Source: a virus. From it: a stretch of DNA of 32,112 bases. Of this stretch, positions 9,266-31,861 are shown in pieces. Both the position numbers and the translations under genes were made by a program. The notes under the pieces are model-generated. The model was not told the DNA's origin, did not search any database, and was given only the letters and a program-made list of their open reading frames with translations. Positions within the stretch are counted from its first letter, which is position 1, and every line of letters starts with the position of its first letter. The stretch is from IMG/VR virus record IMGVR_UViG_3300042937_000486, positions 1 through 32,112 of that record, one strand, 5' to 3'.

Positions 9266-9799
9266 TTATTTTTTAAATGTCGAAGCAGCTTCAGATCCAC
9301 CCTCATAGGTAGTAGTTTCGCCAGCATCTCCAGCAACAATCTTGCCCTCAAGTGTGTGTTGACCAACTCCCTCTGGATGATTCATATCTATCACTAATTT
9401 AAGACCATGTCCTAATTTGTGTGTTAATCCATCGTCATCCAACTTGGTGCCCTTTTCATCAACACCAGTACGACCACCGAATTGAGTTAACTTGAATTCC
9501 ATATGTTCTGATGTTGGATATTTCTTGCCATCATATTTGAAATCTAAACCAATCTTGTTCAGTTCAACACGAAGCTGTATCAATTTTTGTCTTGGATCTA
9601 ACATACCAGCGGAAGGAACATTAGAAAGAAATGGCTGAACAAATGCGTTGATTCTTTCTAACATTTCTGGTTCTGAAAGATCGTGCAATCCAACACTGCC
9701 GTCAGCGGCTTGTTGACTATTGTAGCCAGGAACAACCATTCCGTGGCCCTCTAAAATGTCGTATTGTTCAATCAGTCTTCTTAGTTCTTTGAATTTCAT
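9266..9799 (-). CDS. Late virion-associated protein with capsid-targeting-like start
   Basis: 177 aa. Begins MKFKELRRLIEQYDILEG, a short amphipathic leader with LIE, as in its neighbours. A helical middle (PRQKLIQLRVELNKIGLDF) and a Gly/Asp-rich C terminus follow. The C-terminal half may be beta-structured. No known family named. One base separates it from the upstream gene, so it is co-translated in the late operon. Confidence 0.7.
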   Translation of the reverse strand: MKFKELRRLIEQYDILEGHGMVVPGYNSQQAADGSVGLHDLSEPEMLERINAFVQPFLSNVPSAGMLDPRQKLIQLRVELNKIGLDFKYDGKKYPTSEHMEFKLTQFGGRTGVDEKGTKLDDDGLTHKLGHGLKLVIDMNHPEGVGQHTLEGKIVAGDAGETTTYEGGSEAASTFKK

Positions 9800-15988: not shown

Positions 15989-17872
15989 CTAGTCCTTTAA
16001 TTTGGCTGTGTTAGTTTGCTTATTATATGTATATTTTGAAGGAGAATTTCCAGATTTCTTGCTTGCCCTATCTTTGGCTCTCTCTCCCGGTGTCATACTA
16101 TTACGAGTTTCACCTTTATCTGTTAATGCAAGCGAGTCTTGCTGTAATATGCCAAATTGGCGCAATTTACCTATTGCTACATTTGCTGCACCAGAAACAC
16201 CTTTTGATCTCAATTGATTTGTAAGACGAGTGAGTATCTTTGGCTTTGTTTCTTCTTTGATTTTGACTGTTCTCAATCTGAATTTTGTGTTTGGATGTGA
16301 TTGTTGTAACTCACCAACCGCATCTACATTTGGAGCATGATCATCACTGAACTCAACTTTTTTATAATTCTTACCAGCAATATGAGTACCGAGTGCATTT
16401 CTTTTTGCATTTGGATCAGAAGAACCAACTGCCATTATTTTCAAACGCTTGCCGCGCACTCCACGAGTCTTTAAATACTTGCGAATCGCATCTTCGGATT
16501 TGGCAGGTCTTGCAGTAAGCACTGCTACATCTCTGCCTTTTCTAGAAGCATTTCTTGCTGCTCTATCTAATCCGGTAACTGGTACTGGATCTACAACATT
16601 ATGAAAATCTGTATAATCCATTTGATGATGCTTCTCTGGTGTAAACTTTGCATATTCAGCCGGAGTTAAATATGTAATTTCACCATTACGAGTATCAGTA
16701 ACTTTGACTTTTGAATTTGTATGTGCTAATGTATCATCAAAATCAAATACATGGAGATGTTTTTTTGCTTCAGTTATCTTATCTTTTTTTCCATGAAACA
16801 CATCTCTCCAACCAGATACATTTTTTGTCCAGTTCTTATTCAAGCCAGTTGGATCATTACTGGCTCCAGCTGGTGCATATTTGCTTGCAAGATATGGAAT
16901 AAAATCTTCTGGTTTGCCACCAGATGATATATGTGAACGATATTTGCTCATTACAGTGGCTGCAGCCCATCCGGCTTGTCTATCCAGAGTGGTTTCTTTT
17001 CCTTCACCTTTTTTGCCTAAAGCTTTTGGTGCAAGGACTCCAAATTCTTTTCCAGATTTGCCATTCTCTGCTTTACGAATACCAAACAATGTAGCTATAT
17101 GGTCGTGATCTGTTGCCTTTATACCATTTCGCTCTGCAGCAGCCATTATGATTGGGTATTCTTCGCCAAAGTGTTGTTGCAATCTAGCGTGAAATTCTTT
17201 ATGTCCAGGCGGTTCTTTTGTTTTTACTTCAGGCATCTTTGATTGAACATCTTTAGGAATAATCAATGATGCTTTTGGTTTTTTGATTTGTGGTGCTGCT
17301 GCATTTACTTGTGCTATATGAACTTCTGGTTTCTTTGGAAACATATTCTTAACTGCTTTACCACCACCAAATGCCACAGCTCCTGCAACAGCAGCAGTGC
17401 CCAATACCTTTGCGATATCTTTCTTTAAACTCTCATTGACAATTTCATTTCTTTCATAATCTTTGATCACATAATCTGGATGTGCTTTGCGTAATTTTTG
17501 AACTATGCCAGATATATGTGATGGTGGAGTCTTGTTATCGTATGTTAAAGAGATGGCTTTAAGATCATGATCGACTCTACCAGAAGGTCTTCTGGGGCCG
17601 CCTTCTGGGTAATGTAATTCATCCATGCCAAACATATCGCCATGTGTGGCTTTTGGTCTCCACTCTGGTATTTTTTTTCTTTTGATAGTATCATCGTGGT
17701 GTACCCAGAGTTCTGTGTTTGTACTAGAACCAATACCACCAGTATATGCCTGATGACCAATTTCAGTATATGCATCCTTATCAACAGGATATTGGTGCCT
17801 AGTCTTTACTCTTTTGTAAAATTCTGGCACATCCGGTTCATTAGATTCTGAAAATTGACCAAATGACTTCAT
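15989..17872 (-). CDS. Lysozyme-like plus HAD phosphatase protein with capsid-targeting-like leader
   Basis: 627 aa. Leader MKSFGQFSESNE. Residues about 15-145 are an unassigned domain (ELWVHHDD, GDMFGMDELHYPEGGP). A Gly/Ala stretch near 155-175 may be a membrane helix. Residues about 225-355 look like a lysozyme/transglycosylase (FGIRKAENGKSGKEFGVL, RQAGWAAATVMSKY, NWTKNVSGWRD). Residues 372-540 are a HAD phosphatase: motif I D377-F-D379-D-T, VLTARP, and FSDDHAPN. The tail (MTPGERAKDRASKKSG) is basic. It could be a virion enzyme for entry plus a nucleic-acid end or nucleotide phosphatase. ATGA overlap with the 61-aa gene upstream. Confidence 0.75.
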   Translation of the reverse strand: MKSFGQFSESNEPDVPEFYKRVKTRHQYPVDKDAYTEIGHQAYTGGIGSSTNTELWVHHDDTIKRKKIPEWRPKATHGDMFGMDELHYPEGGPRRPSGRVDHDLKAISLTYDNKTPPSHISGIVQKLRKAHPDYVIKDYERNEIVNESLKKDIAKVLGTAAVAGAVAFGGGKAVKNMFPKKPEVHIAQVNAAAPQIKKPKASLIIPKDVQSKMPEVKTKEPPGHKEFHARLQQHFGEEYPIIMAAAERNGIKATDHDHIATLFGIRKAENGKSGKEFGVLAPKALGKKGEGKETTLDRQAGWAAATVMSKYRSHISSGGKPEDFIPYLASKYAPAGASNDPTGLNKNWTKNVSGWRDVFHGKKDKITEAKKHLHVFDFDDTLAHTNSKVKVTDTRNGEITYLTPAEYAKFTPEKHHQMDYTDFHNVVDPVPVTGLDRAARNASRKGRDVAVLTARPAKSEDAIRKYLKTRGVRGKRLKIMAVGSSDPNAKRNALGTHIAGKNYKKVEFSDDHAPNVDAVGELQQSHPNTKFRLRTVKIKEETKPKILTRLTNQLRSKGVSGAANVAIGKLRQFGILQQDSLALTDKGETRNSMTPGERAKDRASKKSGNSPSKYTYNKQTNTAKLKD

Positions 17873-20405: not shown

Positions 20406-21062
20406 TCATTTCTCTGGATGGTGAATCAACTTCCACGATCCATGCTCTCTGTAGTCAATACCATACACTTTAGATTCGTGTTCTTCTGGCTTGTAAACGG
20501 GAATATGTTCATCCGTGTTTTCATTGAAAGCAGCAGATCCACCAAGACGGGTTATATCCTTCCACATACTATGCGAACCATGTGTATGTGCATCTCCGCT
20601 CATAATGGATTTCTTGAGATGCTTTGCTGCCATCATGTACACATTAGCAGCCAGATTTGGAACCTTAGCCCGCTTTCCTGTATGCTCTCTTGCAAATGTA
20701 GGAGAAGCGTGTGGATAAAGAACTGTCTTGCTTGCACCTGGCAGTTTCTTTGGTTTTGGCAGTTCTATGAAATCAACATGACCAATTGGTTCTTGTTCGT
20801 GCTTCACAATGAAACTGTGTTTGTCTTGTTCTGGGGAGTGATAAACTTTGTATGGGCCTAATTCGCCAATCTTAACATGAAGACCTTTGTTTGGTGTTGC
20901 TGGATAGTCAGCAGTCGGAGCTTTTACAGCATCGCGGACATCCTTGGCATGATTGAATGGCATATTCGGATCCATCAAATGCACTCTCTTAGCATGAATA
21001 CCAAAATCGGTAGTGGCATCAAAGAATGGTGCTTCAGAGATGTACTTCTTAAAGCTTTTCAT
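20406..21062 (-). CDS. Late protein with capsid-targeting-like leader, acetyltransferase-like?, 218 aa
   Basis: Leader MKSFKKYISEAPF is nearly superposable on T4 internal protein leaders, with ISE then Ala. The body shares a domain with the next gene: LGPYKVYHSPEQDKHSFIV, then HTGKRAKVPNLAANVYMMAA and SMWKDITRLGG. The order of strands and a GKxxxVxNLxxxxY helix loosely recalls GNAT acetyltransferases, but I see no firm motif. ATGA overlap with the upstream gene. Confidence 0.72.
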   Translation of the reverse strand: MKSFKKYISEAPFFDATTDFGIHAKRVHLMDPNMPFNHAKDVRDAVKAPTADYPATPNKGLHVKIGELGPYKVYHSPEQDKHSFIVKHEQEPIGHVDFIELPKPKKLPGASKTVLYPHASPTFAREHTGKRAKVPNLAANVYMMAAKHLKKSIMSGDAHTHGSHSMWKDITRLGGSAAFNENTDEHIPVYKPEEHESKVYGIDYREHGSWKLIHHPEK

Positions 21063-21856
21063 TTCTTTTTCTTACCATCTAAGCGTAGAACTATATCTTC
21101 GTTTCCATCTTCTTGAAATGGATGACCATACACAAACGAATCGTGTGTAGCAGGATTATACTTCTTAATATCACTCAGTTTAATTGATTTCTTTTTGAAC
21201 TCGTCTGGATGAGGAAGATGTTCTTTTTTCTTGATCGCTGCCAATCTTTTTGGGTGCATTCCAGAAACAGCCAAATGTTCTTTTGCCGTTTTAAAATCTC
21301 CATAACCAGCATATTCACCACCATGCAATGCTTCATGCTCATCAGAATAATCTTGAAAGTTTCCTGCATTCATAGAAAGATTTGGATGTCTTGGATGAGT
21401 GTGTACATTTACGCTTGTAGGGGCTCTTACTCCAGTTGGTGTTCCAACCGTGACTGTTCTCATTTTTGCCACTCTATTCCAAATAGATTTACCACCCTTA
21501 GTCTGTCTTGTTCCACTCTCTATTGGCGCTACTTTATCTGCAATCATAGAATAGATCTTTGGAACAAGGTTTCTTACTAATGCATTCTTACCACTATGCT
21601 TTCTGTGCATCTCTGGCATATTAATGCTTATTCTGCCTCTTCCCACTCTACCGATATCCATCACACCAACTTGCTTTCCCTTATGTTGTACAGACACCTG
21701 ATCAATTTCGTGATGGTGATGAACTTCATATGGACCAACATTACCAAGTTTGGTAGCCGGACCATCTGGTATTCTAGTGGTGAATGTGTTGCCACGATGT
21801 CTGGAACCCAGTTCCATCATGGGAAACTCTAGAAGAAATTCAGAAAAGCTTTTCAT
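21059..21856 (-). CDS. Paralogous late protein with capsid-targeting-like leader, 265 aa
   Basis: Leader MKSFSEFLLEFPMM (LLE). Residues about 25-135 align with the 218-aa neighbour: VGPYEVHHHHEIDQVSVQ, HSGKNALVRNLVPKIYSMIA, KSIWNRVAKM. A further C-terminal region of about 110 residues (HPNLSMNAGNFQDYSDEHEA, HPDEFKKKSIKLSDI) is absent from the neighbour. The pair arose by tandem duplication. Function unknown; possibly transferred into the host with DNA. Confidence 0.72.
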   Translation of the reverse strand: MKSFSEFLLEFPMMELGSRHRGNTFTTRIPDGPATKLGNVGPYEVHHHHEIDQVSVQHKGKQVGVMDIGRVGRGRISINMPEMHRKHSGKNALVRNLVPKIYSMIADKVAPIESGTRQTKGGKSIWNRVAKMRTVTVGTPTGVRAPTSVNVHTHPRHPNLSMNAGNFQDYSDEHEALHGGEYAGYGDFKTAKEHLAVSGMHPKRLAAIKKKEHLPHPDEFKKKSIKLSDIKKYNPATHDSFVYGHPFQEDGNEDIVLRLDGKKKK

Positions 21857-22386
21857 GTGTTATTGGTATTGCCCAATTGTCTCAATGCCCTAGCCCTTCC
21901 TGGTTTTCGTCGTCTTGTTTCTGCATCTCCGGGTGTAGCATCGAGTCGGCTAAACCGTCCCTCTGGTTTCCCACCAAACCAATTTTTGCCGTCTGCAACT
22001 TTCTTCTCCACTGCCTTAAGATAACTAATTCGGAGTTCATTGCTGATCTCACTTAAAGTTTCTTCTTTCACAGTTTTATTTTGTATCTTACTAATTCTGT
22101 CTTTTCGATCAAATGCGCTTGTCAATTTTTTGTCTTCATCTGCAGTCATTTCATGTCTATCGCCTTCTTCATAAGACTTCTCCGCATTGTCATCAATGGT
22201 CTTCTGTGCCTTGTTCTTTTCTCTCTTCAATATCGCATCTCTTTCAGGAGTCATTCTATAGGCTTCATCCAAAGACAATATAGCATCTTCTAATTCAGTA
22301 ATATAAGCCAATTGTTCATTGACAGTCTCTTGGAGTTTAACGGATTCATTAAAGTAATGTTGATATTTTCTTACTAAGTCTGACAT
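21853..22386 (-). CDS. Late coiled-coil protein, 177 aa
   Basis: Start at 22386 (ATG, AAGGGTGG upstream, one base after the previous stop) rather than the GTG codons just before. First 45 residues (KYQHYFNESVKLQETVNEQL then AYITELEDAI) are almost the same as the next gene upstream. The rest is charged, with a basic Arg-rich end (ETRRRKPGRARALRQLG). FNE then Ser could be a processing site. Probable head core protein. Confidence 0.75.
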   Translation of the reverse strand: MSDLVRKYQHYFNESVKLQETVNEQLAYITELEDAILSLDEAYRMTPERDAILKREKNKAQKTIDDNAEKSYEEGDRHEMTADEDKKLTSAFDRKDRISKIQNKTVKEETLSEISNELRISYLKAVEKKVADGKNWFGGKPEGRFSRLDATPGDAETRRRKPGRARALRQLGNTNNT

Positions 22387-22387
22387 A

Positions 22388-22699
22388 TCATTCACCACCC
22401 TTTTGTTTTTCTATTTCTTTCAAAAGATCTTCAATTTTAGGACTTCCGGTTCTATTTGCAGCAGCATCTTGTTGCTTCCTAAGTTTTGCTAGTTTTGCAT
22501 CAGCCTGCTTGAGCAGTTCTCCCTCTTTTCCCCATGATATGCTTTTATTGGTAAAAGGTATTTTAATTTCACCTTCACTCAAATCAATGAGAGCATCTTC
22601 TAATTCAGCAATATAAGCCAATTGTTCATTAACAGTCTCTTGCAACTTGACCGATTCATTGAAGTAGTGTTGGTACTTTTGTACGAGTATATCAGACAT
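22388..22699 (-). CDS. Late coiled-coil protein, 103 aa, first gene of late operon
   Basis: Begins MSDILVQKYQHYFNESVKLQ, then ETVNEQLAYIAELEDALI. This 40-residue module is repeated in the next gene and partly in the 219-aa gene. The C-terminal half is a charged helix (ADAKLAKLRKQQDAAANR). AAGGA precedes the ATG and an exact late box lies 42 bp upstream. Likely a scaffold or core-associated protein. Confidence 0.75.
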   Translation of the reverse strand: MSDILVQKYQHYFNESVKLQETVNEQLAYIAELEDALIDLSEGEIKIPFTNKSISWGKEGELLKQADAKLAKLRKQQDAAANRTGSPKIEDLLKEIEKQKGGE

Positions 22700-22740
22700 G
22701 GTAGGTTCCTTATTTTGTTAACAATTGGAATAATCACATG

Positions 22741-22748
22741 TATTTATA
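22741..22748 (-). promoter_or_regulatory. T4-type late promoter box TATAAATA
   Basis: Exact box on the - strand, 42 bp before the first gene of the late block. Expected main late promoter for 22.7-19.7 kb. Confidence 0.8.
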
Positions 22749-22798
22749 ATATGAAATATACGGGTAATCGGGCCAATTGAGTGGGAATAGCGAAGGGG

Positions 22799-23083
22799 TC
22801 AGAGGTATCTGCGTTTGATTGCGGCTTCTACGCGACCACCTTTGATGCCATCGCCACTTGCGATCTTTTGCATGATATCCCGGAAGCCACCAGTAGCCTT
22901 CCCGTCCACCCGGTGCGCCGTATCAATTGCAGTACCCGGTACACTCAAGACCACTTGCCGTACACACCGCTTCTTGCCACACTGTGGGCATGGGAGCCCC
23001 TCTGGTAAGGCATTGTCAGCCATGCGGTGGGTCTCCTCCCAGATCGCTTGGCACTTGTCACATTGGTAATCGTATGCTGGCAT
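22799..23083 (-). CDS. FmdB-type zinc ribbon protein, 94 aa
   Basis: Begins MPAYDYQCDKCQAIWEE with zinc ligands C8, C11, C32, C35, the standard FmdB ribbon (two CxxC knuckles about 20 residues apart). The tail is basic (GIKGGRVEAAIKRRYL). FmdB-type ribbons in phages are assumed to be regulators or protein-binding zinc knuckles. AAAGGAG precedes the ATG. It is transcribed away from the repeat block that starts about 120 bp upstream and could be regulated by it. Confidence 0.85.
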   Translation of the reverse strand: MPAYDYQCDKCQAIWEETHRMADNALPEGLPCPQCGKKRCVRQVVLSVPGTAIDTAHRVDGKATGGFRDIMQKIASGDGIKGGRVEAAIKRRYL

Positions 23084-23205
23084 AATAAATCTCCTTTAAA
23101 GTATCTATCTGGTGCCAATTGAGCAACGGACGATTTGCATGGAGGCGAGACGCTGGAGAGCTCTGGGTTCTGTAGTGTCACTGAGGCATTGCCGGCATCA
23201 TCATG

Positions 23206-23515
23206 ACTTCCAATCGAGTAAGCTGGAGCTGCAGGTGAGAGCTCTGGGGTTTCCAGGTAGCCAAAACTTCCAATCGAATGAGCATGGCATATGCCGGCTT
23301 CCAATCGAAAACTTCCAATTGACTGTCTCCCATATTAAACTCTGAGAGCTCGCGACAACTCTCGCGACAACTTCCAATCGATGTTGTAATAATGGCATTC
23401 GGAAACTTCCAATCGAAACTTCCAATCGGCTCGTAAGAGTTTTAACAGAGCTCTGGAACTTCCAATCGATCTGCAATGATTTGGCGTTCAACGGAGGACG
23501 AAAACTTCCAATCGA
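23206..23515 (+). repeat. Nine-copy iteron ACTTCCAATCGA
   Basis: Copies begin at 23206, 23266, 23297 (first base G), 23311 (CAATTGA variant), 23370, 23405, 23418 (last base G), 23458 and 23504. All have the same orientation. Steps are 60, 31, 14, 59, 35, 13, 40 and 46 bp, so it is neither a tandem satellite nor a CRISPR array. Spacer sequences are unrelated except for interspersed AGAGCTC palindromes. Confidence 0.9.
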
Positions 23516-23540
23516 ATTGCTCTATGGCCCACGACTTGTA

Positions 23541-23614
23541 GACAGCGACCTTTAGACCTTCCGCGAGCGACGAGATTTATGCGATAAATCTCTGAAGGTC
23601 TAAAGGTCGCTGTC
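23541..23614. repeat. Long imperfect hairpin (21-bp arms with inner 9-bp stem)
   Basis: Outer arms 23541-23561 and 23594-23614 are perfect 21-bp inverted repeats starting GACAGCGACC. Inside, GAGATTTAT/ATAAATCTC (23572-23580 and 23584-23592) pair with loop GCG, leaving a 10-base bulge at 23562-23571. It could be a cruciform, an RNA hairpin or a bidirectional terminator; there is no clear T run. Confidence 0.9.
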
Positions 23615-23649
23615 GATAGACTCTATTTGTGCGCGAAAATCAGCAGTTT

Positions 23650-24069
23650 TTAGCTGTTTTCCCACAGTTTCGTGATGTATTTGTGAGAAGAACGCTGGCG
23701 AACACCCATGTTTATGGGTAAATTGTAGCGCGCCAATAGATTTAAAGCTCTGGCTTCTGTTCTTGACTCTAATTGTAAATAAGAACTGTTGTCATAATAC
23801 TTGACCTGCTCTTGCCATTGCTGAAAATGTACAAATTCGTGCGCCAAAGTGTGTAAAACAGTGGGCATTGGTCTTTTTGCTGCAATTACGATGAAGCCAC
23901 GAGAATTTTTGGTTGGCGGATTAAAATATCCATCCAAACCATCCTGGAATTCTCCGTCCCAGTCTTTTATACTTCTGTGATTCGCAAGAATGATAGTAAT
24001 CTTACTCGCGCGGCATTGCTCACGCAGGTGCTGAATGAATCGCTGAACTTGTGGATCAGTTCTCTTCAT
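23650..24069 (-). CDS. Small zinc metalloprotease (HExxH)
   Basis: 139 aa with LAHEFVHFQQWQ, giving H77, E78 and H81, and a downstream E105 in ESRTEARALNLL as the likely third ligand (gluzincin order). This resembles the compact zincins related to SprT or IrrE/ImmA. Such proteins cleave regulators or DNA-bound proteins; the target here is unknown. AGGG lies just before the ATG and ATATATACT further up may be a -10. Downstream is the hairpin and repeat block. Confidence 0.75.
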   Translation of the reverse strand: MKRTDPQVQRFIQHLREQCRASKITIILANHRSIKDWDGEFQDGLDGYFNPPTKNSRGFIVIAAKRPMPTVLHTLAHEFVHFQQWQEQVKYYDNSSYLQLESRTEARALNLLARYNLPINMGVRQRSSHKYITKLWENS

Positions 24070-24226
24070 GCCCTAGTATATATGGGCCAATCTGCAGGTG
24101 CTAATTAAAAGTTCTGGTTGTTTCTGGTGCCGCCGCTGTCGACCTCGGCGCCAAAACGAAAGAACCCCCCCAACATGCCGCACTTTGGCGGGTGTTGGAG
24201 GGGTCTTCATTTCGCGAATTGTTAAA
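24070..24226 (-). other. Intergenic gap with terminator
   Basis: 157 bases between the 114-aa gene and the metalloprotease. It holds the terminator at 24153-24204 and possible promoter elements for the metalloprotease. A short open frame here is the hairpin read through and is not called. Confidence 0.6.
24153..24204 (-). terminator. Rho-independent terminator, - strand
   Basis: 12-bp stem pairing 24164-24175 with 24193-24204 (one G-U), an inner CCGC/GCGG pairing in the loop, then a T-rich run on the - strand. It follows the stop of the 114-aa gene. Confidence 0.8.
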
Positions 24227-24571
24227 TCAGCTGCGGCGGGAGTAGTTTGGAGCCACGCGGCGACTTGGGCCATCATGCATGACGGACTTCATCCCCTCGT
24301 TGTCGTAGTACTTACCGAAGTTATAGTTGTACTTCGAGAAGAAACCGCCACCGTTCTTGTCGCGATTCACGGCACGATCAAACTGCTCAAGGAAGCCACC
24401 TTCACGGGCAACCATGCGGCAAGTACGCGCACGGGAGAACAGATCCTTCACCTCGGTCGTGCTAGGGCTCGCATCAGCATCCGAAGCCAATCGGCGAAGG
24501 TAGTCACGGAAGGCGTTGATGGTCATATCCACGATACTCGTATTGCGGTCGGTCTTAATACTGCTAGCCAT
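24227..24571 (-). CDS. Hypothetical early-type protein, 114 aa
   Basis: Begins MASSIKTDRNTSIVDMTINA at 24571, with GGAG 12 bases upstream. An earlier ATG at 24718 in frame is possible but its extra 49 residues look non-protein-like. The middle is helical (AFRDYLRRLASDADA), then RARTCRMVAREGGFLEQFD, and the end is Gly/Tyr/Arg-rich (GGGFFSKYNYNFGKYYD). The tail may bind RNA or DNA. No family recognised. Confidence 0.6.
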   Translation of the reverse strand: MASSIKTDRNTSIVDMTINAFRDYLRRLASDADASPSTTEVKDLFSRARTCRMVAREGGFLEQFDRAVNRDKNGGGFFSKYNYNFGKYYDNEGMKSVMHDGPSRRVAPNYSRRS

Positions 24572-24692
24572 AGTGTCCAAATCTCCAATCGGGGTAGTGA
24601 TTTCTGCACTTTGAAGCGCGGCAGAATTACGCTCTTGAATCAGCGGTCGCCTGACGATGGGACAAAGCCATCCGGCGTACCGTGAGATCACC

Positions 24693-24881
24693 TCAGTCGT
24701 CGAGATCGTGAAACTCATCAGGGAGTTCCAAACGATCCCATTTCCTCGCGAGGTGATCATCCCCATCTCTCGGCTTTCGGACCGGAGAAGGGAACTTGGT
24801 TTGTTGTTTTGCTCGTCTACGGGCATGTTCTTTTTCTCTTTCGTTGCGCCAGTTGCGATCTTTGTCTGCTTTGTCTGTCAT
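24693..24881 (-). CDS. Small highly charged protein, 62 aa
   Basis: Start at 24881 fixed by AAGGA. Begins MTDKADKDRNWRNEREKEHA, then basic (RRRAKQQTKF), and ends in an acidic EFHDLDD. Likely an unfolded nucleic-acid or protein-binding early protein. A good sigma70 promoter lies just upstream. Confidence 0.65.
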   Translation of the reverse strand: MTDKADKDRNWRNEREKEHARRRAKQQTKFPSPVRKPRDGDDHLARKWDRLELPDEFHDLDD

Positions 24882-24901
24882 CTGTTTTCCTTCGCATCTA
24901 T

Positions 24902-24930
24902 ATTGTATCACGAACCATTCGCGATGTCAA
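24902..24930 (-). promoter_or_regulatory. Sigma70 promoter, - strand
   Basis: TTGACA (24925-24930) and TACAAT (24902-24907) on the - strand with a 17-bp spacer, 20 bp before the 62-aa gene. Early-type host promoter. Confidence 0.8.
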
Positions 24931-24933
24931 TAC

Positions 24934-25227
24934 TTAGTCTCCTGAATCGTTGATGTCTTCTTCTTCAAACCCATATCCAAGAACGGATTCGTAGCCAATC
25001 TCTGACAAGCCAGAAAGCATCAATTCTCGCTCTTCGCGTGTCAGATATGGCATACAGATTTCAATCGGCTTCAATGAATCCGGATTGAGCCACTCGGCGT
25101 AGTCGGCTTCCTCTACCGTAATGGTGAATGCCTTGTTCGTTGCCCAACACCTACGCAGAATGGTCTTTGGCTTCGTGAAGGTTTGTGCTGGCGTGGTTTC
25201 GGACATTGGTTCTTTCAGTGCTCGCAT
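24934..25227 (-). CDS. Conserved-type early phage protein, 97 aa
   Basis: AGGAG stands five bases before the ATG. The sequence TRCWATNKAFTITVEEADYA then EWLNP and MPYLTREERELMLSGL matches a pattern I know from small phage proteins in which a CxxC usually follows the SGL segment; here the Cys pair is missing. Acidic C terminus (FEEEDINDSGD). Function unknown. Its transcript begins just after two hairpins. Confidence 0.7.
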   Translation of the reverse strand: MRALKEPMSETTPAQTFTKPKTILRRCWATNKAFTITVEEADYAEWLNPDSLKPIEICMPYLTREERELMLSGLSEIGYESVLGYGFEEEDINDSGD

Positions 25228-25236
25228 AGTTCTCCT

Positions 25237-25298
25237 AAAAGGGTCGGATGGCCGTCAAGCCATCCGACCCCGATGGTTCCTGTTGGGGTACAGGAACC
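25237..25298 (-). terminator. Double hairpin between early genes, terminator-like
   Basis: On the - strand a 9-bp stem (25275-25283 with 25290-25298) is followed by a perfect 12-bp stem (25241-25252 with 25259-25270), then TTTT and directly AGGAG and the next ATG. The second hairpin fits a terminator or attenuator, with read-through controlling the 97-aa gene, or an RNA processing site. Confidence 0.65.
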
Positions 25299-25311
25299 GC
25301 GCTATTTACTT

Positions 25312-25632
25312 TCAGTCGAGAGGGTCGGTGCTGACTGAATCTTCCGCATAGCGGGCTTCGAGTGCTTGCCCAAGCCGGGGCGCGCCTCGAGTGTCTTCGG
25401 ATACTGGCAGTGAGCCTAGGTCGCCAATACATTCGGGGAGACTGTACACCCCACGACTTTGCTTTCGCACCGGATCGCCAGTAATCCAAACGGGAATCAC
25501 AGAGTAGCCAAGCATGTTCTTGACCACGGTAAGATATGAACGAGGGAACGAAACGATTCCCGGATAAACTTCACTTGCCTTCTTAAAGAACTCGACTTGG
25601 TTCCTTGTATATTGTGACTTGATGTGTTGCAT
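25312..25632 (-). CDS. Early protein with winged-helix-like domain, 106 aa
   Basis: Start at 25632 fixed by AGGA. Begins MQHIKSQYTRNQVEFFKKAS. Residues about 15-70 carry the module shared with two other genes: a helix, then VIPVWITGDPVRKQSRGVYS and LPE. The R-G-V-Y end looks like the wing of a winged-helix DNA-binding domain. The C-terminal 35 residues are acidic and probably flexible. May be a regulator. Own sigma70 promoter. Confidence 0.65.
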   Translation of the reverse strand: MQHIKSQYTRNQVEFFKKASEVYPGIVSFPRSYLTVVKNMLGYSVIPVWITGDPVRKQSRGVYSLPECIGDLGSLPVSEDTRGAPRLGQALEARYAEDSVSTDPLD

Positions 25633-25678
25633 GATAGTTCCTGTAGTTAGTGTTTCATCCACTCGGATGTATGAATGT

Positions 25679-25706
25679 ATTGTACAATGTATTCGTACAA
25701 AGTCAA
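25679..25706 (-). promoter_or_regulatory. Sigma70 promoter, - strand
   Basis: TTGACT (25701-25706) and TACAAT (25679-25684) with a 16-bp spacer, upstream of the 106-aa gene. Leader of about 40 bases. Confidence 0.7.
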
Positions 25707-25710
25707 TACA

Positions 25711-26133
25711 TTAGAAAAGAAAATCTTCCGTCTGATCGTCCGATTCTTCCGTGTCAGACATACTGGCGCGCCAGGCTTGAGTCCGCACATCGATTTCGTG
25801 CAGCGCATCTTCAATAGTCAAAATCTTCCCATCGCGCAAGTCCTTCTGAACCTCTCCCACAATTTCCTGGCCCTTCTGCATCAGCAGAGCCAGAGCATTG
25901 CAAGCCAAAGCACGACCATTGTCAGTATCGGTAGTCATTGCCATACCTGCAAGCGTCAGCACTCCGGTATCCAACGATGTTGGCGCGCCATGCATCTTCA
26001 AACGCTCGATCAAGTAGTTCATGATGAGAGCACTGCATTGCAGGTTGAATTCAAGTTTCTTGATCTGGTCATTCAACTCCGTATTACTGCGAATGGCGGA
26101 CATATGAGCGCGGCGTAGAACTTCTGTAGACAT
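25711..26133 (-). CDS. Helical early protein, 140 aa
   Basis: Starts MSTEVLRRAHMSAIRSNTEL at an ATG overlapping the upstream stop (TAATG). Long helices (NDQIKKLEFNLQCSALIMNY) suggest a coiled-coil or helical bundle, with an acidic end (DTEESDDQTEDF). No family recognised. Last gene of the operon led by the AAA+ gene; the sigma70 promoter for the next gene begins close to its 3' end. Confidence 0.7.
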   Translation of the reverse strand: MSTEVLRRAHMSAIRSNTELNDQIKKLEFNLQCSALIMNYLIERLKMHGAPTSLDTGVLTLAGMAMTTDTDNGRALACNALALLMQKGQEIVGEVQKDLRDGKILTIEDALHEIDVRTQAWRASMSDTEESDDQTEDFLF

Positions 26134-26381
26134 TATACAAACCTTTCGTTTGAGTCATCATAGGCAAGGGAATCGTACTCGGCATCGGTGATTGGTTCAT
26201 TGGCAGGCTTCAGACATGGCACCAAACCATGTACACTTCTGAAGTCATGCATGATATTGATTTGGCGTTCGAGATCGAACATCTCCTCATGCTCGGCCGC
26301 GGCGACAGCGACTTCGCAATCTTTGCAATTAACACAATCAGCATCGTTCACATCAGCACCGCATTCACGACATGGTAGCAT
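26133..26381 (-). CDS. Zinc-ribbon early protein, 82 aa
   Basis: Start at 26381 set by GGAGAAG; the longer open frame upstream overlaps the previous gene. Begins MLPCRECGADVNDADCVNCK, four Cys in two CxxC-type knuckles within the first 25 residues, then an acidic helix (AAAEHEEMFDLERQINIM). Probably a protein- or nucleic-acid-binding knuckle. TAATG overlap with the next gene. Confidence 0.7.
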   Translation of the reverse strand: MLPCRECGADVNDADCVNCKDCEVAVAAAEHEEMFDLERQINIMHDFRSVHGLVPCLKPANEPITDAEYDSLAYDDSNERFV

Positions 26382-26682
26382 TTGTCTTCTCCATTGTTTT
26401 GTCCATGATTCGACTGTACGCTTCGGTCTTGTATTCAGTACCTGCACAAGCGGTAATGATTTCTGCATTCAATTCATCGTGTCTAATAGGGATTTCCGGA
26501 CAGTAGTACAGACCACGAGATCGTCGGCGCGATACATCCTTCATCAACCATCGGGGCAACCGTTGACCAGTGTTCTTCCGAATGTTAATCAACATTTTTC
26601 GAGAGATCAGATCTGTGGTTGCTCCACAAGAAATTGCAGCATCAAGAAACAGGTTTTGCTTTTGTGTATAGATTGAATTCAT
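26365..26682 (-). CDS. Early protein with winged-helix-like domain, 105 aa
   Basis: Start at 26682, AAAGGA upstream. Residues about 10-65 hold the shared module: TTDLISRKMLINIRKNTG, then RLPRWLMKDVSRRRSRGLYY and CPE. This is close to the N terminus of the AAA+ ATPase (SWLMKDDSRR, GRYSCAE) and to the 106-aa protein. The remainder is helical. Likely DNA- or partner-binding adaptor; inference. Confidence 0.68.
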   Translation of the reverse strand: MNSIYTQKQNLFLDAAISCGATTDLISRKMLINIRKNTGQRLPRWLMKDVSRRRSRGLYYCPEIPIRHDELNAEIITACAGTEYKTEAYSRIMDKTMEKTNATMS

Positions 26683-26692
26683 GGCGTGTCCT

Positions 26693-26920
26693 TTAACTAG
26701 ATTGGGTGAGTTCAAGATCCCGAACGATGGCAAACAGATTGGTCTCTTCATCAGCAGAGAGCATGATCGGATCATGGGTGGTGATGAAATTGTGAATGAG
26801 TTCTGCGATGTACTTGGTTTCTACTTCGCAACCAACCCACGATTCGGATTGATATGCATCACCAATAATTGCGAGTTGATCTGAGATGTTTGTGGGTGAA
26901 CCACTTCGGCAGTCTTTCAT
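26693..26920 (-). CDS. Hypothetical early protein, 75 aa
   Basis: Start at 26920 with AAAGGAG. Begins MKDCRSGSPTNISDQLAIIG; a helix-rich middle (ETKYIAELIHNFITTHD) and LSADEETNLFAIVRDL follow. No motif recognised. ATGA overlap with the zinc-ribbon gene upstream. Confidence 0.65.
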   Translation of the reverse strand: MKDCRSGSPTNISDQLAIIGDAYQSESWVGCEVETKYIAELIHNFITTHDPIMLSADEETNLFAIVRDLELTQSS

Positions 26921-27081
26921 TTTACTCCTTTGTTGTAGCAGTTGAAATAGCAGGTGTAACACATGATAGCAGACTCACCGGCATTTGCACTTGCAATATC
27001 TTGCGAGAGCGACGGCACCACGATGCACTTTTCTTTGGTAAGTTCATTACCACAATTGTCGCAGTACTCTTTGTCTTTCAT
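26917..27081 (-). CDS. Four-Cys zinc-binding protein, 54 aa (paralog A)
   Basis: Start at 27081 with AAGGAG. C7 and C10 (CDNC) and a C-terminal CYTC pair frame a loop IVVPSLSQDI and ESAIMC. The same frame occurs in the 66-aa protein at 27.5 kb (IPSLSRDI, DSAVMC), so the two are paralogs. Likely a structural zinc knuckle. ATGA overlaps both sides. Confidence 0.7.
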   Translation of the reverse strand: MKDKEYCDNCGNELTKEKCIVVPSLSQDIASANAGESAIMCYTCYFNCYNKGVK

Positions 27082-27275
27082 TTGGCTCCTTGGTATGGGT
27101 ATGCGACAGCGAGAAACGATGGGACTGCCCAAGCAACAAACACGAACGGCATCGCGAACCACACTGGCGCTTCGCGATTGATGATGCTATCCATAGCAAT
27201 GAAAGTGAATGCAATTGCCATAAAGAATGTTGCGAGAGTAATTAGTGCGTAGGTCTTACTGTTGAAGTTCTTCAT
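27078..27275 (-). CDS. Small two-TM membrane protein, 65 aa
   Basis: Two helices: residues about 10-28 (ALITLATFFMAIAFTFIAM) and 38-58 (VWFAMPFVFVAWAVPSFLAV). AAAGGAG upstream overlaps the stop of the 55-aa gene. Could be an inner-membrane early protein, for example in superinfection exclusion; not shown. Confidence 0.7.
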   Translation of the reverse strand: MKNFNSKTYALITLATFFMAIAFTFIAMDSIINREAPVWFAMPFVFVAWAVPSFLAVAYPYQGAK

Positions 27276-27289
27276 ATCGTGTGTCTCCT

Positions 27290-27457
27290 TTAGAATCCGA
27301 TGGCGAACGCGCCATCCTTGTCTGTTTTAGTGATGGCCGGATTGGCCCAATGATGAATGTCGTTTGTTGAATCGTAGATGACTACTGGGCGATGAAGTAG
27401 ATCAGGATCCTTGTCGATTGCTTGCTTGATTGTTTTTAATAGTGTGGCGTATGTCAT
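27290..27457 (-). CDS. Small hypothetical protein, 55 aa
   Basis: GGAG lies nine bases before the ATG. Begins MTYATLLKTIKQAIDKDPDL, then LHRPVVIYDSTNDIHHW and ends in KDGAFAIGF. It has the look of a folded alpha/beta fragment. The stop forms part of the next gene's ribosome site, and spacing to the upstream gene is four bases. No family recognised. Confidence 0.68.
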   Translation of the reverse strand: MTYATLLKTIKQAIDKDPDLLHRPVVIYDSTNDIHHWANPAITKTDKDGAFAIGF

Positions 27458-27461
27458 TGTA

Positions 27462-27662
27462 TTAACTCCGTTCCATGTAGCAGCATCCGAAACACATCAC
27501 GGCTGAATCGCCCTGTTTCTTTCCGTCACGAATACCCGCAGCAGCCGGGATGTCTCGCGATAGACTTGGAATGTTGATACGAGTAGTATCGGTCAGGGTT
27601 TGCTGGCAGTAGTCGCACTTCAGTTTGGCGGTCTTGTTTGCTTTGATTGTGAATACTTGCAT
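27462..27662 (-). CDS. Four-Cys zinc-binding protein, 66 aa (paralog B)
   Basis: Start at 27662 with AAAGGAG. CDYC near residue 16, then LTDTTRINIPSLSRDI, DSAVMCFGCC near the end. Paralog of the 54-aa protein at 26.9 kb. First 15 residues (MQVFTIKANKTAKLK) are an added strand. Function unknown. Confidence 0.72.
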   Translation of the reverse strand: MQVFTIKANKTAKLKCDYCQQTLTDTTRINIPSLSRDIPAAAGIRDGKKQGDSAVMCFGCCYMERS

Positions 27663-27675
27663 ATGAGTTTCTCCT

Positions 27676-29136
27676 TTAGGCGTAGATGGCAACGGGGGCG
27701 AACTTAGCGAACACAGGATGAGTAGTTGCTGCATCTGCATCATGCTTTGCAGGCGTGATGAACCAAACCTTCTTGGCAGCATCCCATGTCGCACCTGCGG
27801 CACGAATTGCATTGCGATCATGGTACGATGCACCCGACAGATCGTAACGCGTCACGATCTTCGCCGCGACCGGGATAGGGTTACCATGCTGGTCGACAGC
27901 GCCACTTGCCGCTTCAGGTGCAGCATCAGGTGCAGCATCAACGCATTGAGCCGATGCAGCGTCAACCTTGCTGTACAGATTCAAGAACGAATCGCGAGTC
28001 GAGGCACTGAACCGCGCACAAGCAGCGGTCACAGCCTTGGTACGATCAGCAAAGATGCTGAAGTTGTCCACGATCATGCACAGACGGCGAGTAGTGATGA
28101 TCGCATCCGATCCGCCTTCCATGTAAGTCTTACGAACGATCTCAGCCCACTTCACCAACGAATCGGCGAACGGCTCATCGATGCACTGCATGGCTTCCAT
28201 GTTACCAAGCACGATCTTCTTCTCGACCGACTTCGTTGGGTACTCTTGCTCGTAAGTACCGGAGAAGCGTTCAAGCAGCGCCTCATCGAGGATCGAACGA
28301 GAGGAGAACTGCTCGGAACCCTCACCACCCTGGCCCTTGGTGTTCATCGTAGCGAACACATTGAAGCCGGGAGCCGGTTCGATCTGCGCGTTGATCTTTG
28401 GCAGGAACGCGCCCTTACCTTCAAGGACGCGCATCAGGCACATGATCTTGTGCGAAGCCGTGTCCATCTCGTCGAGGAGAAGGATCGCGCCGCGCTTCAT
28501 CGCAGACACAACAGGGCCGTCCTGCCACACGGTATCACCGGCGACAAGACGGAAACCACCCATCAGGTCATCAGCATCGGTCTGGCTAGTGATGTTGACG
28601 CGCACACACTCGCGCCCCAACTTAGCACACACCTGCTCAATCATGGTCGTCTTACCGTTACCGGAAAGACCAGTGACCATCGTTGGATACCAACGCTTGG
28701 ACTTGACGATGGCTTCCACATCCTTGTAGTTGCCGTACGGAACATAGGTCAGCAACTTGGAAGGAACGAAGTTCCCATCAAGCGTAGCAGCAGTGACCGC
28801 GACAGCGGCAGGAGCCGCAGTACGCGCTTGCATCACAGGCTGCACCTGCTCAACTGCATTCGCTGGCAGGCTACGAGCATGAGCGGCACCGGCAGCAGCA
28901 TACTGTGCTGCTGCATACGCACCGTTACGCGCTGCACAAGCGGCAACGAGTTCAGCGCACGAGTAGCGACCGTGGCCGCAACGGCGTGAATCGTCCTTCA
29001 TCAACCACGACGGCATGGGGCAGCCGTACTTAGCGCGAAGCGCCTTGATCTGCGAACGCGACAGCGGCGAGGTGAAGCCCTCTTTAACACACAAGGACAC
29101 GAAGGTTTCGATCTTGTTATTCATTGAATTAGTCAT
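27676..29136 (-). CDS. CobS/MoxR-type AAA+ ATPase with N-terminal winged-helix-like and C-terminal DUF5710-like domains
   Basis: 486 aa. Residues 1-65 are the shared module (MPSWLMKDDSRR, GRYSCAE). An Ala-rich linker follows, then the AAA+ core: Walker A GLSGNGKT with K162, Walker B LLLDEMD with D222/E223, sensor-like FATMNTKG. After about 400 comes RNAIRAAGATWDAAKKVWFI, matching the GARWD pattern I know as DUF5710. CobS is the ATPase motor of cobaltochelatase; MoxR proteins are chaperone-like and act with VWA partners. Such phage genes are often labelled cobS. The VWA partner gene lies divergently across a shared control region. GGAG precedes the ATG. Confidence 0.88.
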   Translation of the reverse strand: MTNSMNNKIETFVSLCVKEGFTSPLSRSQIKALRAKYGCPMPSWLMKDDSRRCGHGRYSCAELVAACAARNGAYAAAQYAAAGAAHARSLPANAVEQVQPVMQARTAAPAAVAVTAATLDGNFVPSKLLTYVPYGNYKDVEAIVKSKRWYPTMVTGLSGNGKTTMIEQVCAKLGRECVRVNITSQTDADDLMGGFRLVAGDTVWQDGPVVSAMKRGAILLLDEMDTASHKIMCLMRVLEGKGAFLPKINAQIEPAPGFNVFATMNTKGQGGEGSEQFSSRSILDEALLERFSGTYEQEYPTKSVEKKIVLGNMEAMQCIDEPFADSLVKWAEIVRKTYMEGGSDAIITTRRLCMIVDNFSIFADRTKAVTAACARFSASTRDSFLNLYSKVDAASAQCVDAAPDAAPEAASGAVDQHGNPIPVAAKIVTRYDLSGASYHDRNAIRAAGATWDAAKKVWFITPAKHDADAATTHPVFAKFAPVAIYA

Positions 29137-29236
29137 TGCGATAGTTGCTCCGAAAGAGTGAGGAAATTGGTGGCCTACGAAGGCGACTCGCCAATCGTAC
29201 CATAAACGCCCTGTAGCCGCAATGGGGGCGAAGCAT
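29129..29236 (-). other. Possible leader peptide, 35 aa, before AAA+ gene
   Basis: An ATG five bases after GAGGAG opens 35 codons ending just inside the AAA+ start (TAA at 29131-29129). Arg-rich product (MLRPHCGYRAFMVRLASRLR). The likely promoter lies inside it, so it would be made only from an upstream start such as the TATAAATC nearby. Low confidence. Confidence 0.2.
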
Positions 29237-29467
29237 AATTCTCCTCGGATTTATAACCCCATATGGGACAAGGACTTAGGCACTATGTCGAAAAGTCCTC
29301 CCCAAATCGACATATTATCCGGACATTGGTAGGGCATCGACATAGTTGTTATTGGACATCGACAGCGTATTATCGGACTTTTCTGACTCAGCGACCCAGG
29401 TTTGGTTATTGGACACTTTGGCTATTGATGTTGACACAGGGCAGCGTTTATGGTACGATTGGCGCAT
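29137..29467. promoter_or_regulatory. Divergent control region with matching promoters
   Basis: Two near-identical promoters point outwards. On the + strand TTGACA (29431-29436), 17 bp, TACGAT (29454-29459). On the - strand TTGCGG (29217-29222), 17 bp, TACGAT (29194-29199). A perfect 21-bp element (29189-29209 and 29444-29464, inverted; contains TTTATGGTACGATTGGCG) covers both -10 boxes. Between them lie four TTATYGGAC copies (about 29315, 29349, 29370, 29406), candidate operators. Confidence 0.75.
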
Positions 29468-31861
29468 ATGACTACCGTTTCTACATCGTCTCTGAACCCA
29501 TTCGCCGTCAACACAAGCGCCAAGGACGCTTTCGCTCGTTTGCTTGCTACTGAGAACCTGACCGTAGTGCATGATGCTAGTGCGCCTACTGCTATGTTCG
29601 ATACCATGTCTCGTGTTCTTACTCTTCCCGTTTGGAAGGATATGACCGGAGACATTTACGATATGCTTTGCGCTCACGAAGTGGGTCATGCATTGCATAC
29701 GCCGCGTGATATGTCCGTGATCGCTGCAAGCATGACCGCGATTGATGCTGATGCATCAGCCAATCAGCAGGTGCTGCACGATTATCTTAATGTCGTGGAA
29801 GACATTCGTATTGATCGCCTCATGAAGGATCTCTACCCTGGCCTCAAGCGTTGCTACGCTGAAGCAGGCAAGTACTTGTACAACAAGAACTTCTTTGGCG
29901 TTACCGATCTCAGCCCTGCTGATGTTGCTGCATTGTCCATGCTTGATCGCGTGAACCTGCACTTCAAGTCTGGCATCTACGGCGTGACCTCTGTGCCGAT
30001 GAGTGTCGATGAGGCTGCATGGCTTCCTCGCTTGGAGTCCTTGAAGACTTGGGACGATGTAGTCGCCCTCGCCACCGAACTCTACGAGTACGATGGTGCA
30101 AAGAAGTCCGCCAAGCAGCAGCAGCAACAGCAGCCCCCACAGGCTGGCAATGATGCAGGTGATGGTGAAGGCGAAGACGCCGGTGCCGCTGTCGCCTCTG
30201 AGCAGGGTTCCGAGGGTAACGATGCAGGACAATCGGAAGCCACTGGTCAGTCTTCAGACTCTGAAGATTCATCGGCTGCTGACGGTAGCAATTCATCCGG
30301 CCCTGAAGCAACTACGCAGGACGGTAACAAGCAGAGCAACGGCGATGGTAAGCAGCAGAACAAGACTGCCCCTGCCAAGCAGAGCAAGCCTGCCCCTGCC
30401 AGCAATGGTGGTGGTACGAACTCCAAGCCTACTGGCTCAGTCACTGCTGAAGCAGAACGCAAGAACGCCAGTAGCCTGATCGCTGCTGACGGTACGACCG
30501 TTCGTAAGTGGAAGATGCCGACTGTCAATCTCGCCGAGGTTGTGGTGGGTTACAAGTCTGTTTGTGCTCAGTTCGCTGGCCACCTCAGTCGTAACCCAAA
30601 CTACACTGGCGCTAAGTTGCTCAATGACTTCCGCAAGAACAGCACCGATGCCATCAAGATGCTCGTCAAGCAGTTTGAGATGAAGATGGCTGCTGATGAA
30701 TCACGCCGTACTCGTTCGGCTCGTTGTGGTGTCATCGACATGGATCGCGTGTCGGACTATCGTTTCTCTGACGATATCTTCCTCTCTGTCGAGGAGCATG
30801 CCAAGGGTAAGAATCACGGCATGATTATCTTCGTGGACTGGTCTGGCTCAATGTCTAGCAATCTCAAGAACACCGTGTATCAACTGATGAACCTGGTCAT
30901 GTTCTGCAAGGCTGTCGGTATCCCATTCGAGGTGTATCTGTTCACTGATGCATACGATACTTACTGCGAGAAGTACAACCTCACCGGCAATGGTTCTGCA
31001 AACTATGTGACCACCCATGTCAATATCTGCAAGGAGTACGCAGAAGAGATCGAACCACGCACCGGTCACAAGTCGACCAACTACGGTGAGTACTTGACCT
31101 TCCGCCGTTTCCACTTGCTCAATGTGCTTTCCAACAAGATGACCAAGACGCAGTTCGATCTGTGCGCCGGTATGATGCTTGCGTTCGGTGATTGCAGCGC
31201 CAGTGGGTATCATCCTCAGAATCCTACGCCACCGGGGTTTGGACTTGGTGGTACGCCGCTTGATGAAGCAGTGTATGCAGCCGTGCCGCTCACGCAGCAG
31301 TTCAAGGCTGACTACAAGTTGCAGGTAGCCAATGTGGTTTTCCTTACCGATGGTGAGTCGGGCTCATCGCCCTTCCACACTTCGGACAAGTTTGGTAACA
31401 ACAACTGCCGCCCTGTGCTTGTTGACGGTAACAAGTCATGGGCTGTGCCTGTGAAGGTGTCCGGCTCACGGTATACCTATGTGGAGCAGAAGATGACCAC
31501 GACCGCGGTGTTCCGTTCGTATCTCAAGTACAAGACGGGCGCCAATGTGATTGGTTTCTTCCTGACTGATAGCATGAACTCAGCCAAGCATTACATTCCT
31601 GCTTCAGCCGAAGCGGATAGTCAGTTCGCTAGCCTCAAGGAGAACGGATTCGCTTCAGTACAGACCGAGGGTTTCGATCAGAACTTCATTATCATCCCAA
31701 CGGCTACGACCTCTTCGGATGATGTGAAGAATGCTCTCAACAAAGCCGCCCGTGATTCTAAGGATCTTCGTAATGCTTTCATGAAGTCTTCCAAGAGCAT
31801 CCGCGGTAGCCGTGTGCTGATGTCTCGGATTGCTGATGTGATCGCCAAGAATCTTTCCTAA
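29468..31861 (+). CDS. CobT-like zincin plus VWA domain protein, partner of the AAA+ ATPase
   Basis: 797 aa from 29468; an ATG at 29450 lies upstream of the predicted transcription start and is not used. N terminus has a zincin-like HEVGHALHTP (H70, E71, H74) with a Glu/Asp-rich VVEDIRID (E111). Residues about 215-335 are a low-complexity Gln, then Ser/Asp/Glu/Asn-rich linker. The C-terminal half carries a VWA domain with the MIDAS motif D457-W-S-G-S461 and later FLTDGE. The order (N domain, acidic linker, VWA) is that of CobT, the CobS partner. Whether the HExGH site is proteolytic is unknown. Confidence 0.85.
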   Translation: MTTVSTSSLNPFAVNTSAKDAFARLLATENLTVVHDASAPTAMFDTMSRVLTLPVWKDMTGDIYDMLCAHEVGHALHTPRDMSVIAASMTAIDADASANQQVLHDYLNVVEDIRIDRLMKDLYPGLKRCYAEAGKYLYNKNFFGVTDLSPADVAALSMLDRVNLHFKSGIYGVTSVPMSVDEAAWLPRLESLKTWDDVVALATELYEYDGAKKSAKQQQQQQPPQAGNDAGDGEGEDAGAAVASEQGSEGNDAGQSEATGQSSDSEDSSAADGSNSSGPEATTQDGNKQSNGDGKQQNKTAPAKQSKPAPASNGGGTNSKPTGSVTAEAERKNASSLIAADGTTVRKWKMPTVNLAEVVVGYKSVCAQFAGHLSRNPNYTGAKLLNDFRKNSTDAIKMLVKQFEMKMAADESRRTRSARCGVIDMDRVSDYRFSDDIFLSVEEHAKGKNHGMIIFVDWSGSMSSNLKNTVYQLMNLVMFCKAVGIPFEVYLFTDAYDTYCEKYNLTGNGSANYVTTHVNICKEYAEEIEPRTGHKSTNYGEYLTFRRFHLLNVLSNKMTKTQFDLCAGMMLAFGDCSASGYHPQNPTPPGFGLGGTPLDEAVYAAVPLTQQFKADYKLQVANVVFLTDGESGSSPFHTSDKFGNNNCRPVLVDGNKSWAVPVKVSGSRYTYVEQKMTTTAVFRSYLKYKTGANVIGFFLTDSMNSAKHYIPASAEADSQFASLKENGFASVQTEGFDQNFIIIPTATTSSDDVKNALNKAARDSKDLRNAFMKSSKSIRGSRVLMSRIADVIAKNLS

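Follow-up and report, generated by a model that had tools for sequence, protein, structure and literature searches.

Non-coding block with direct repeats

What is the function of a block of phage DNA in which one short sequence recurs in the same direction, at irregular distances, upstream of an fmdB-like gene? The window, i.e., the whole stretch of DNA analyzed, comprises the 32,112 nt of IMG/VR virus record IMGVR_UViG_3300042937_000486 (positions 1 to 32,112). An earlier note on this DNA had described nine same-direction 12-mers in 310 bp, six of them exact and three with one mismatch, and had read them as an iteron array belonging to a replication origin, a partition site, or multi-operator control. 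Two features carry the motif:

23206..23515, plus strand: iteron array, nine copies of ACTTCCAATCGA, refined motif (A/G)AACTTCCANTCG
23112..23122, plus strand: tenth copy, degenerate, GTGCCAATTGA, lying about 30 bp before the start of the fmdB-like gene

Searching the whole window with up to one mismatch, ACTTCCAATCGA was found to start at 23206, 23266, 23297, 23311, 23370, 23405, 23418, 23458, and 23504, and the described counts were confirmed, with 9 of 9 copies on the plus strand. No further match at this threshold was present in the rest of the 32-kb window. Allowing two mismatches, 14 matches were obtained in the window versus 3.31 ± 1.80 expected, a number attained by 0 of 100 shuffles. 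The Poisson estimate for nine copies per 310 bp was about 1e-34, and about 1e-22 after correcting for all 12-mers and all positions. Chance is excluded as the source of the array. The copy-to-copy distances (60, 31, 14, 59, 35, 13, 40, and 46) are irregular, as had been claimed, and range from 13 to 60; helical phasing of the copies was tested and none was found. AGAGCTC palindromes, which the earlier note had seen mixed into the array, do occur four times in the window (23157, 23238, 23345, and 23447). They were ruled out as a conserved part of the element, since AGAGCTCT is missing from the related loci examined.

Genomic context

The array sits inside a one-direction transcription block, about 6 kb from the nearest point of divergence. 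Its surroundings are as follows:

22799..23083, minus strand: fmdB-like zinc-ribbon gene (PF09723), directly downstream of the array along transcription, candidate control target
23650..24069, minus strand: small metallopeptidase-like gene (HExxH) that matches DUF6782 weakly, located beyond the hairpin
22741..22748, minus strand: TATAAATA, before the next gene block (22699 and below), a block boundary outside the array
22799-31861 in the window and about 36948-47498 in G002 (reversed): block of high fourfold-site G+C, with the array at its edge

The sequence TATAAATA matches the consensus of T4 late promoters letter for letter. In both phages, fourfold-site G+C increases from about 0.2-0.3 to mostly 0.4-0.7 in the stretch that runs from fmdB to the CobS/CobT genes inclusive, part of which may have greedy ORF picks on the wrong strand. 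The CobS/CobT-type proteins of the window belong to PHROGs 249 and 459, and the best matches of the CobT-type protein were found in cyanophages and other T4-like marine phages. The T4-type DNA polymerase of the related contig G002 shares about 50% identity with that of Synechococcus phage S-RIM8, and G002 also encodes proteins which, on reading of their sequences, appear UvsX- and gp41-like.

Conservation in related phages

Related phages, whose comparison the earlier note had proposed, carry the array rather than lacking it. It was found in G002, in its near-identical sister G003 (96-99% identity for much of the sequence they share around the locus), and in L030, which stems from another contig than G002/G003. 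In each of them it lies upstream of the fmdB-like gene in unchanged orientation, and the copy number per array in this phage group is about eight to eleven. In L035 the first two copies are visible before the contig ends, and L034 showed no motif within the 64 bp available. Where the window has the degenerate GTGCCAATTGA, a good copy is present in G002, G003, L030, and L035. Alignment of the window with L016 showed preserved motif copies and diverged intervening DNA.

Tabulating 30 sites of the window, G002, and L030, among them the degenerate window copy and one chance match inside the G002 peptidase gene (38004), showed that the information lies within a motif about 13 bp long, one position of which is free, and that the flanks are near zero. 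With a weight matrix built from 27 tabulated copies, and for this reason partly circular, the array and outlying copies scored at least 14.5 and other sites in the window, G002, G003, G001, and L030 at most 12.3. The one exception was an opposite-strand site (14.8) between two outlying copies of G002/G003. As single sites reach 16.2 in shuffled G002 sequence, the weakest copies alone would lack significance. The outlying copies are two further ones that precede the peptidase start by about 100-145 bp in G002/G003; none were seen there in the window.

Counting the motif, as the earlier note had suggested, showed that it is not scattered in the available sequence (window, its 27-kb continuation, G002, and G003): all records compared are fragments, and no copy was found elsewhere in the rest of the 73.5 kb of G002, the 48.8 kb of G003, or the 27-kb contig continuing the window. 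Using a shorter 10-base pattern on the full 18.7-kb L030 contig, two further one-mismatch matches were obtained on the other strand. Near DNA matches were absent from the phage records. Motif pairs were found in 17 stretches of bacterial and archaeal genomes, some of them regular tandem repeats. An example is L067 (4317-4506) of Methanosarcina sp. KYL-1, a regular 15-bp tandem array of TCGATTGGAAGTTGA with the same core, which is probably unrelated. The array is also not a general companion of fmdB: when the more distant fmdB loci L038-L061 were scanned for k-mer arrays, only L054 was flagged. There, at 1556-1724 of another phage contig, a different repeat, TGAGCCCAA, occurs six times near a distant fmdB-like gene.

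Long inverted repeat next to the array

Two nested structures adjoin the array on the peptidase side:

23541..23614, no strand: long inverted repeat beginning GACAGCGACC, 26-nt arms, 92% complementary, 22 nt between them
23572..23592, no strand: hairpin with a perfect 9-bp stem, GAGATTTAT-GCG-ATAAATCTC, nested in the loop of the long repeat, seen by sequence and fold

The inverted repeat of G002/G003 has 26-nt arms with 100% complementarity and agrees with that of the window in position and outer arm sequence. Between the two forms three pairs are altered on both sides, and one whole pair was inserted or lost. These compensatory changes support a paired structure without proving it, as the repeat is represented by just two independent forms. 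The L030 contig stops at the base of the inverted repeat. Pattern matches to the hairpin in L080-L082 were dismissed; they lie in loci without an array of this motif and look like chance.

Nature of the element

We read the block 23112-23614 as a cis-acting DNA element that a clade of uncultured T4-like phages has conserved. The earlier statement that no gene explains the array held, as no conserved gene covers the block and the copies occupy all three frames. A short minus-strand ORF (23201-23491) does cover most of the array, and duplication can spread short repeats. Nevertheless, functionless duplicated DNA or the trace of a repetitive peptide is a very improbable explanation: the motif was kept in diverged phages while the DNA between the copies was not, and the relatives share position and orientation. 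A coding repeat in particular was rejected on the basis of the three frames.

Slightly less improbable, and still unlikely, is an RNA element, e.g., a sponge displaying the minus-strand motif CGANUGGAAGU in hairpin loops. The minus-strand motif contains GGA, single copies fall into hairpin loops in G002 and L030, and the minus strand folds locally into somewhat more stable structures than it does with shuffled flanks. However, the core was not preferentially unpaired when both strands were checked, for which reason an RNA-loop motif was rejected. The bases flanking the motif do not covary, with position 0 nearly always A and position 11 mixed, and an Rfam search of the window gave no family match. 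Folding calculated without the inverted repeat was weak to moderate (z -0.4 to -2.1). A CRISPR array was ruled out, since a 13-bp motif at spacings of 13-60 in the window differs from long regular repeats with unique spacers; a cas-like gene was not recognized among the genes searched.

As all reading frames are used, an RNA-loop signal is missing, and helical phasing is absent, an array of asymmetric protein sites is the best reading. Very probably, the copies are binding sites for one sequence-specific DNA-binding protein, which would occupy all of these asymmetric sites of about 13 bp, arranged in one direction and adjoining the long inverted repeat. The earlier reading as an origin or multi-operator region survived in this general form and was strengthened by the conservation in relatives, the confinement to a single locus, and the adjacent inverted repeat with compensatory changes. 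Its more specific part, the origin itself, was not borne out by the features discussed below. The function that we assign to the array is an inference throughout.

Gene exchange next to the hairpin

One neighboring gene differs between the two sister strains:

37654-38073 of G002 (reversed) versus the same place in G003: swapped HExxH peptidase gene

The two peptidases are only 56% identical at the protein level, though the strains are near-identical around the locus. The swapped stretch is bounded on its 3' side by a breakpoint where the hairpin has its outer end, and on its 5' side by one within the beginning of the peptidase gene. Array and hairpin might accordingly mark a site of recombination or module exchange, where neighboring genes swap between phages, and the three independent contigs L030, L034, and L035 terminate in or beside the array. 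We consider this role improbable. The swap was seen a single time, and it requires nothing beyond ordinary homologous recombination between conserved flanks. The contig ends possibly represent assembly breaks at repeats or the swapped gene, and may also reflect strain variation. Moreover, such a role by itself needs no 13-bp motif in 8-11 copies. Arbiol et al. 2010 are said to have proposed gene exchange at regulatory cassettes for T4-type phages. The swap between close strains described here resembles such an exchange, with its breakpoint at the hairpin beside a regulatory-looking block, but differs in having been seen once.

Possible roles in replication or transcription control

Tentatively, our first choice is that the array would serve to start or control genome replication in a manner similar to T4 oriE. 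The evidence separates this poorly from control of transcription, which is a close rival and nearly as likely. Replication is favored because of the confinement to one locus, the many sites in the same direction, the adjacent structured repeat, and the precedent of oriE. A putative initiator would fill the iterons and help to open the DNA or to load the primosome, and the adjacent hairpin would act as an entry or stop structure, as was proposed, though left unproven, for the oriE iterons of T4.

T4 oriE contains a cluster of 12-nt direct repeats that close relatives carry as well, in syntenic regions (PMC3016281). In both cases short direct repeats cluster at a single locus in a T4-type phage and are retained in syntenic regions of relatives. 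The oriE repeats are evenly spaced, whereas the array is non-coding and irregular with an adjacent hairpin. Several same-direction repeats in a non-coding region are also present in iteron origins, both those of plasmids and that of the phage satellite PLE (PMC7145576). As in these origins, several direct repeats of one short sequence lie in one orientation at one locus of non-coding DNA, and at the same place in related genomes. Unlike them, the array has neither an identified initiator gene nearby nor a directly adjoining A+T-rich opening region.

An initiator gene linked to the array was not recognized among the selected genes searched, and the neighbors encode the zinc-ribbon and peptidase proteins. 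ParA/ParB-type genes were likewise absent from the selected genes searched against Pfam and PHROGs. In a 60-bp profile the A+T content stays between 0.40 and 0.60 through the array, and no A+T-rich opening region adjoins it directly; clearly A+T-rich DNA is first reached at about 22600-22780 on one side and around 23740 on the other. T4 origins working through R-loops do not require an A+T-rich region. GC skew, which the earlier note had suggested as a test for an origin, showed no strand-composition switch at the array: at fourfold sites it tracks gene direction on both sides. As gene direction accounts for the skew, base composition does not independently support an origin. In T4, several origins are located near divergence points (PMC3016281), so the position of the array within a one-direction block, about 6 kb from the nearest such point, counts against an origin.

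The alternative, a possible one in our estimation, is multi-operator control, in which a phage or host regulator would switch fmdB and perhaps the peptidase gene, or would block elongation that arrives from the genes upstream. The array lies directly upstream of fmdB, and in G002, G003, L030, and L035 the first copy is located about 30 bp from the fmdB start codon beside a conserved -10-like TANATAYT. The outlying copies of G002/G003, about 100-145 bp before the peptidase start, have the same orientation relative to that gene. However, the promoter-proximal copy of the window is degenerate, its nearest good copy lies 123 bp upstream of fmdB, and the copies on the peptidase side were seen in G002/G003 and not in the window. 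Eight to eleven sites without helical phasing are many for one promoter, the motif was found at no other gene in the available sequence, and no repressor gene was recognized. The closest parallel is provided by the operator/stoperator sites of cluster A mycobacteriophages (L5 type), asymmetric sequences of about 13 bp in one orientation relative to transcription, which are bound by L5-type repressors (PMC9283540). The motif of the array is likewise asymmetric, about 13 bp long, and in a single orientation relative to transcription. L5 sites are spread genome-wide, in contrast to one locus here, judged from fragments only, where a repressor gene was not recognized either. If the array is an operator array, it points to an unrecognized regulator acting where two gene blocks meet.

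Returning to replication, a narrower proposal is a dedicated non-coding iteron origin in T4-type phages, with an initiator acting on one-direction 13-bp iterons beside a structured inverted repeat. We regard it as rather unlikely. If true, this clade would start replication through an initiator-iteron mechanism that replaces or complements the transcript-primed R-loops of T4. The role of the oriE iterons has been called "ill defined" in a review of T4 (PMC3016281). In L079, regular repeats with a 24-bp period were found at 9427-9558 beside the annotated T4 oriE, within the coding sequence of gene 5, and we infer that these are the published oriE iterons. As they lie inside a coding sequence, a repeated protein motif may underlie the T4 "iterons". 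A non-coding array with a precise motif in diverged phages offers a cleaner object for testing initiator-iteron origins in T4-type phages.

Further observations in the window

Several proteins of the window start with MKSF... (15989-17872, 20406-21062, and 21059-21856), a start that appears to resemble the N-terminal sequence by which internal head proteins of T4 are targeted to the capsid. Two adjacent ORFs at 21853-22699 share a near-identical N-terminal region (YQHYFNESVKLQETVNEQLAYI.ELEDA), which is also present in ORFs of L016 and L030. A collagen-like protein with Gly-X-Y repeats is encoded at 1-963, its frame being open at the window start.
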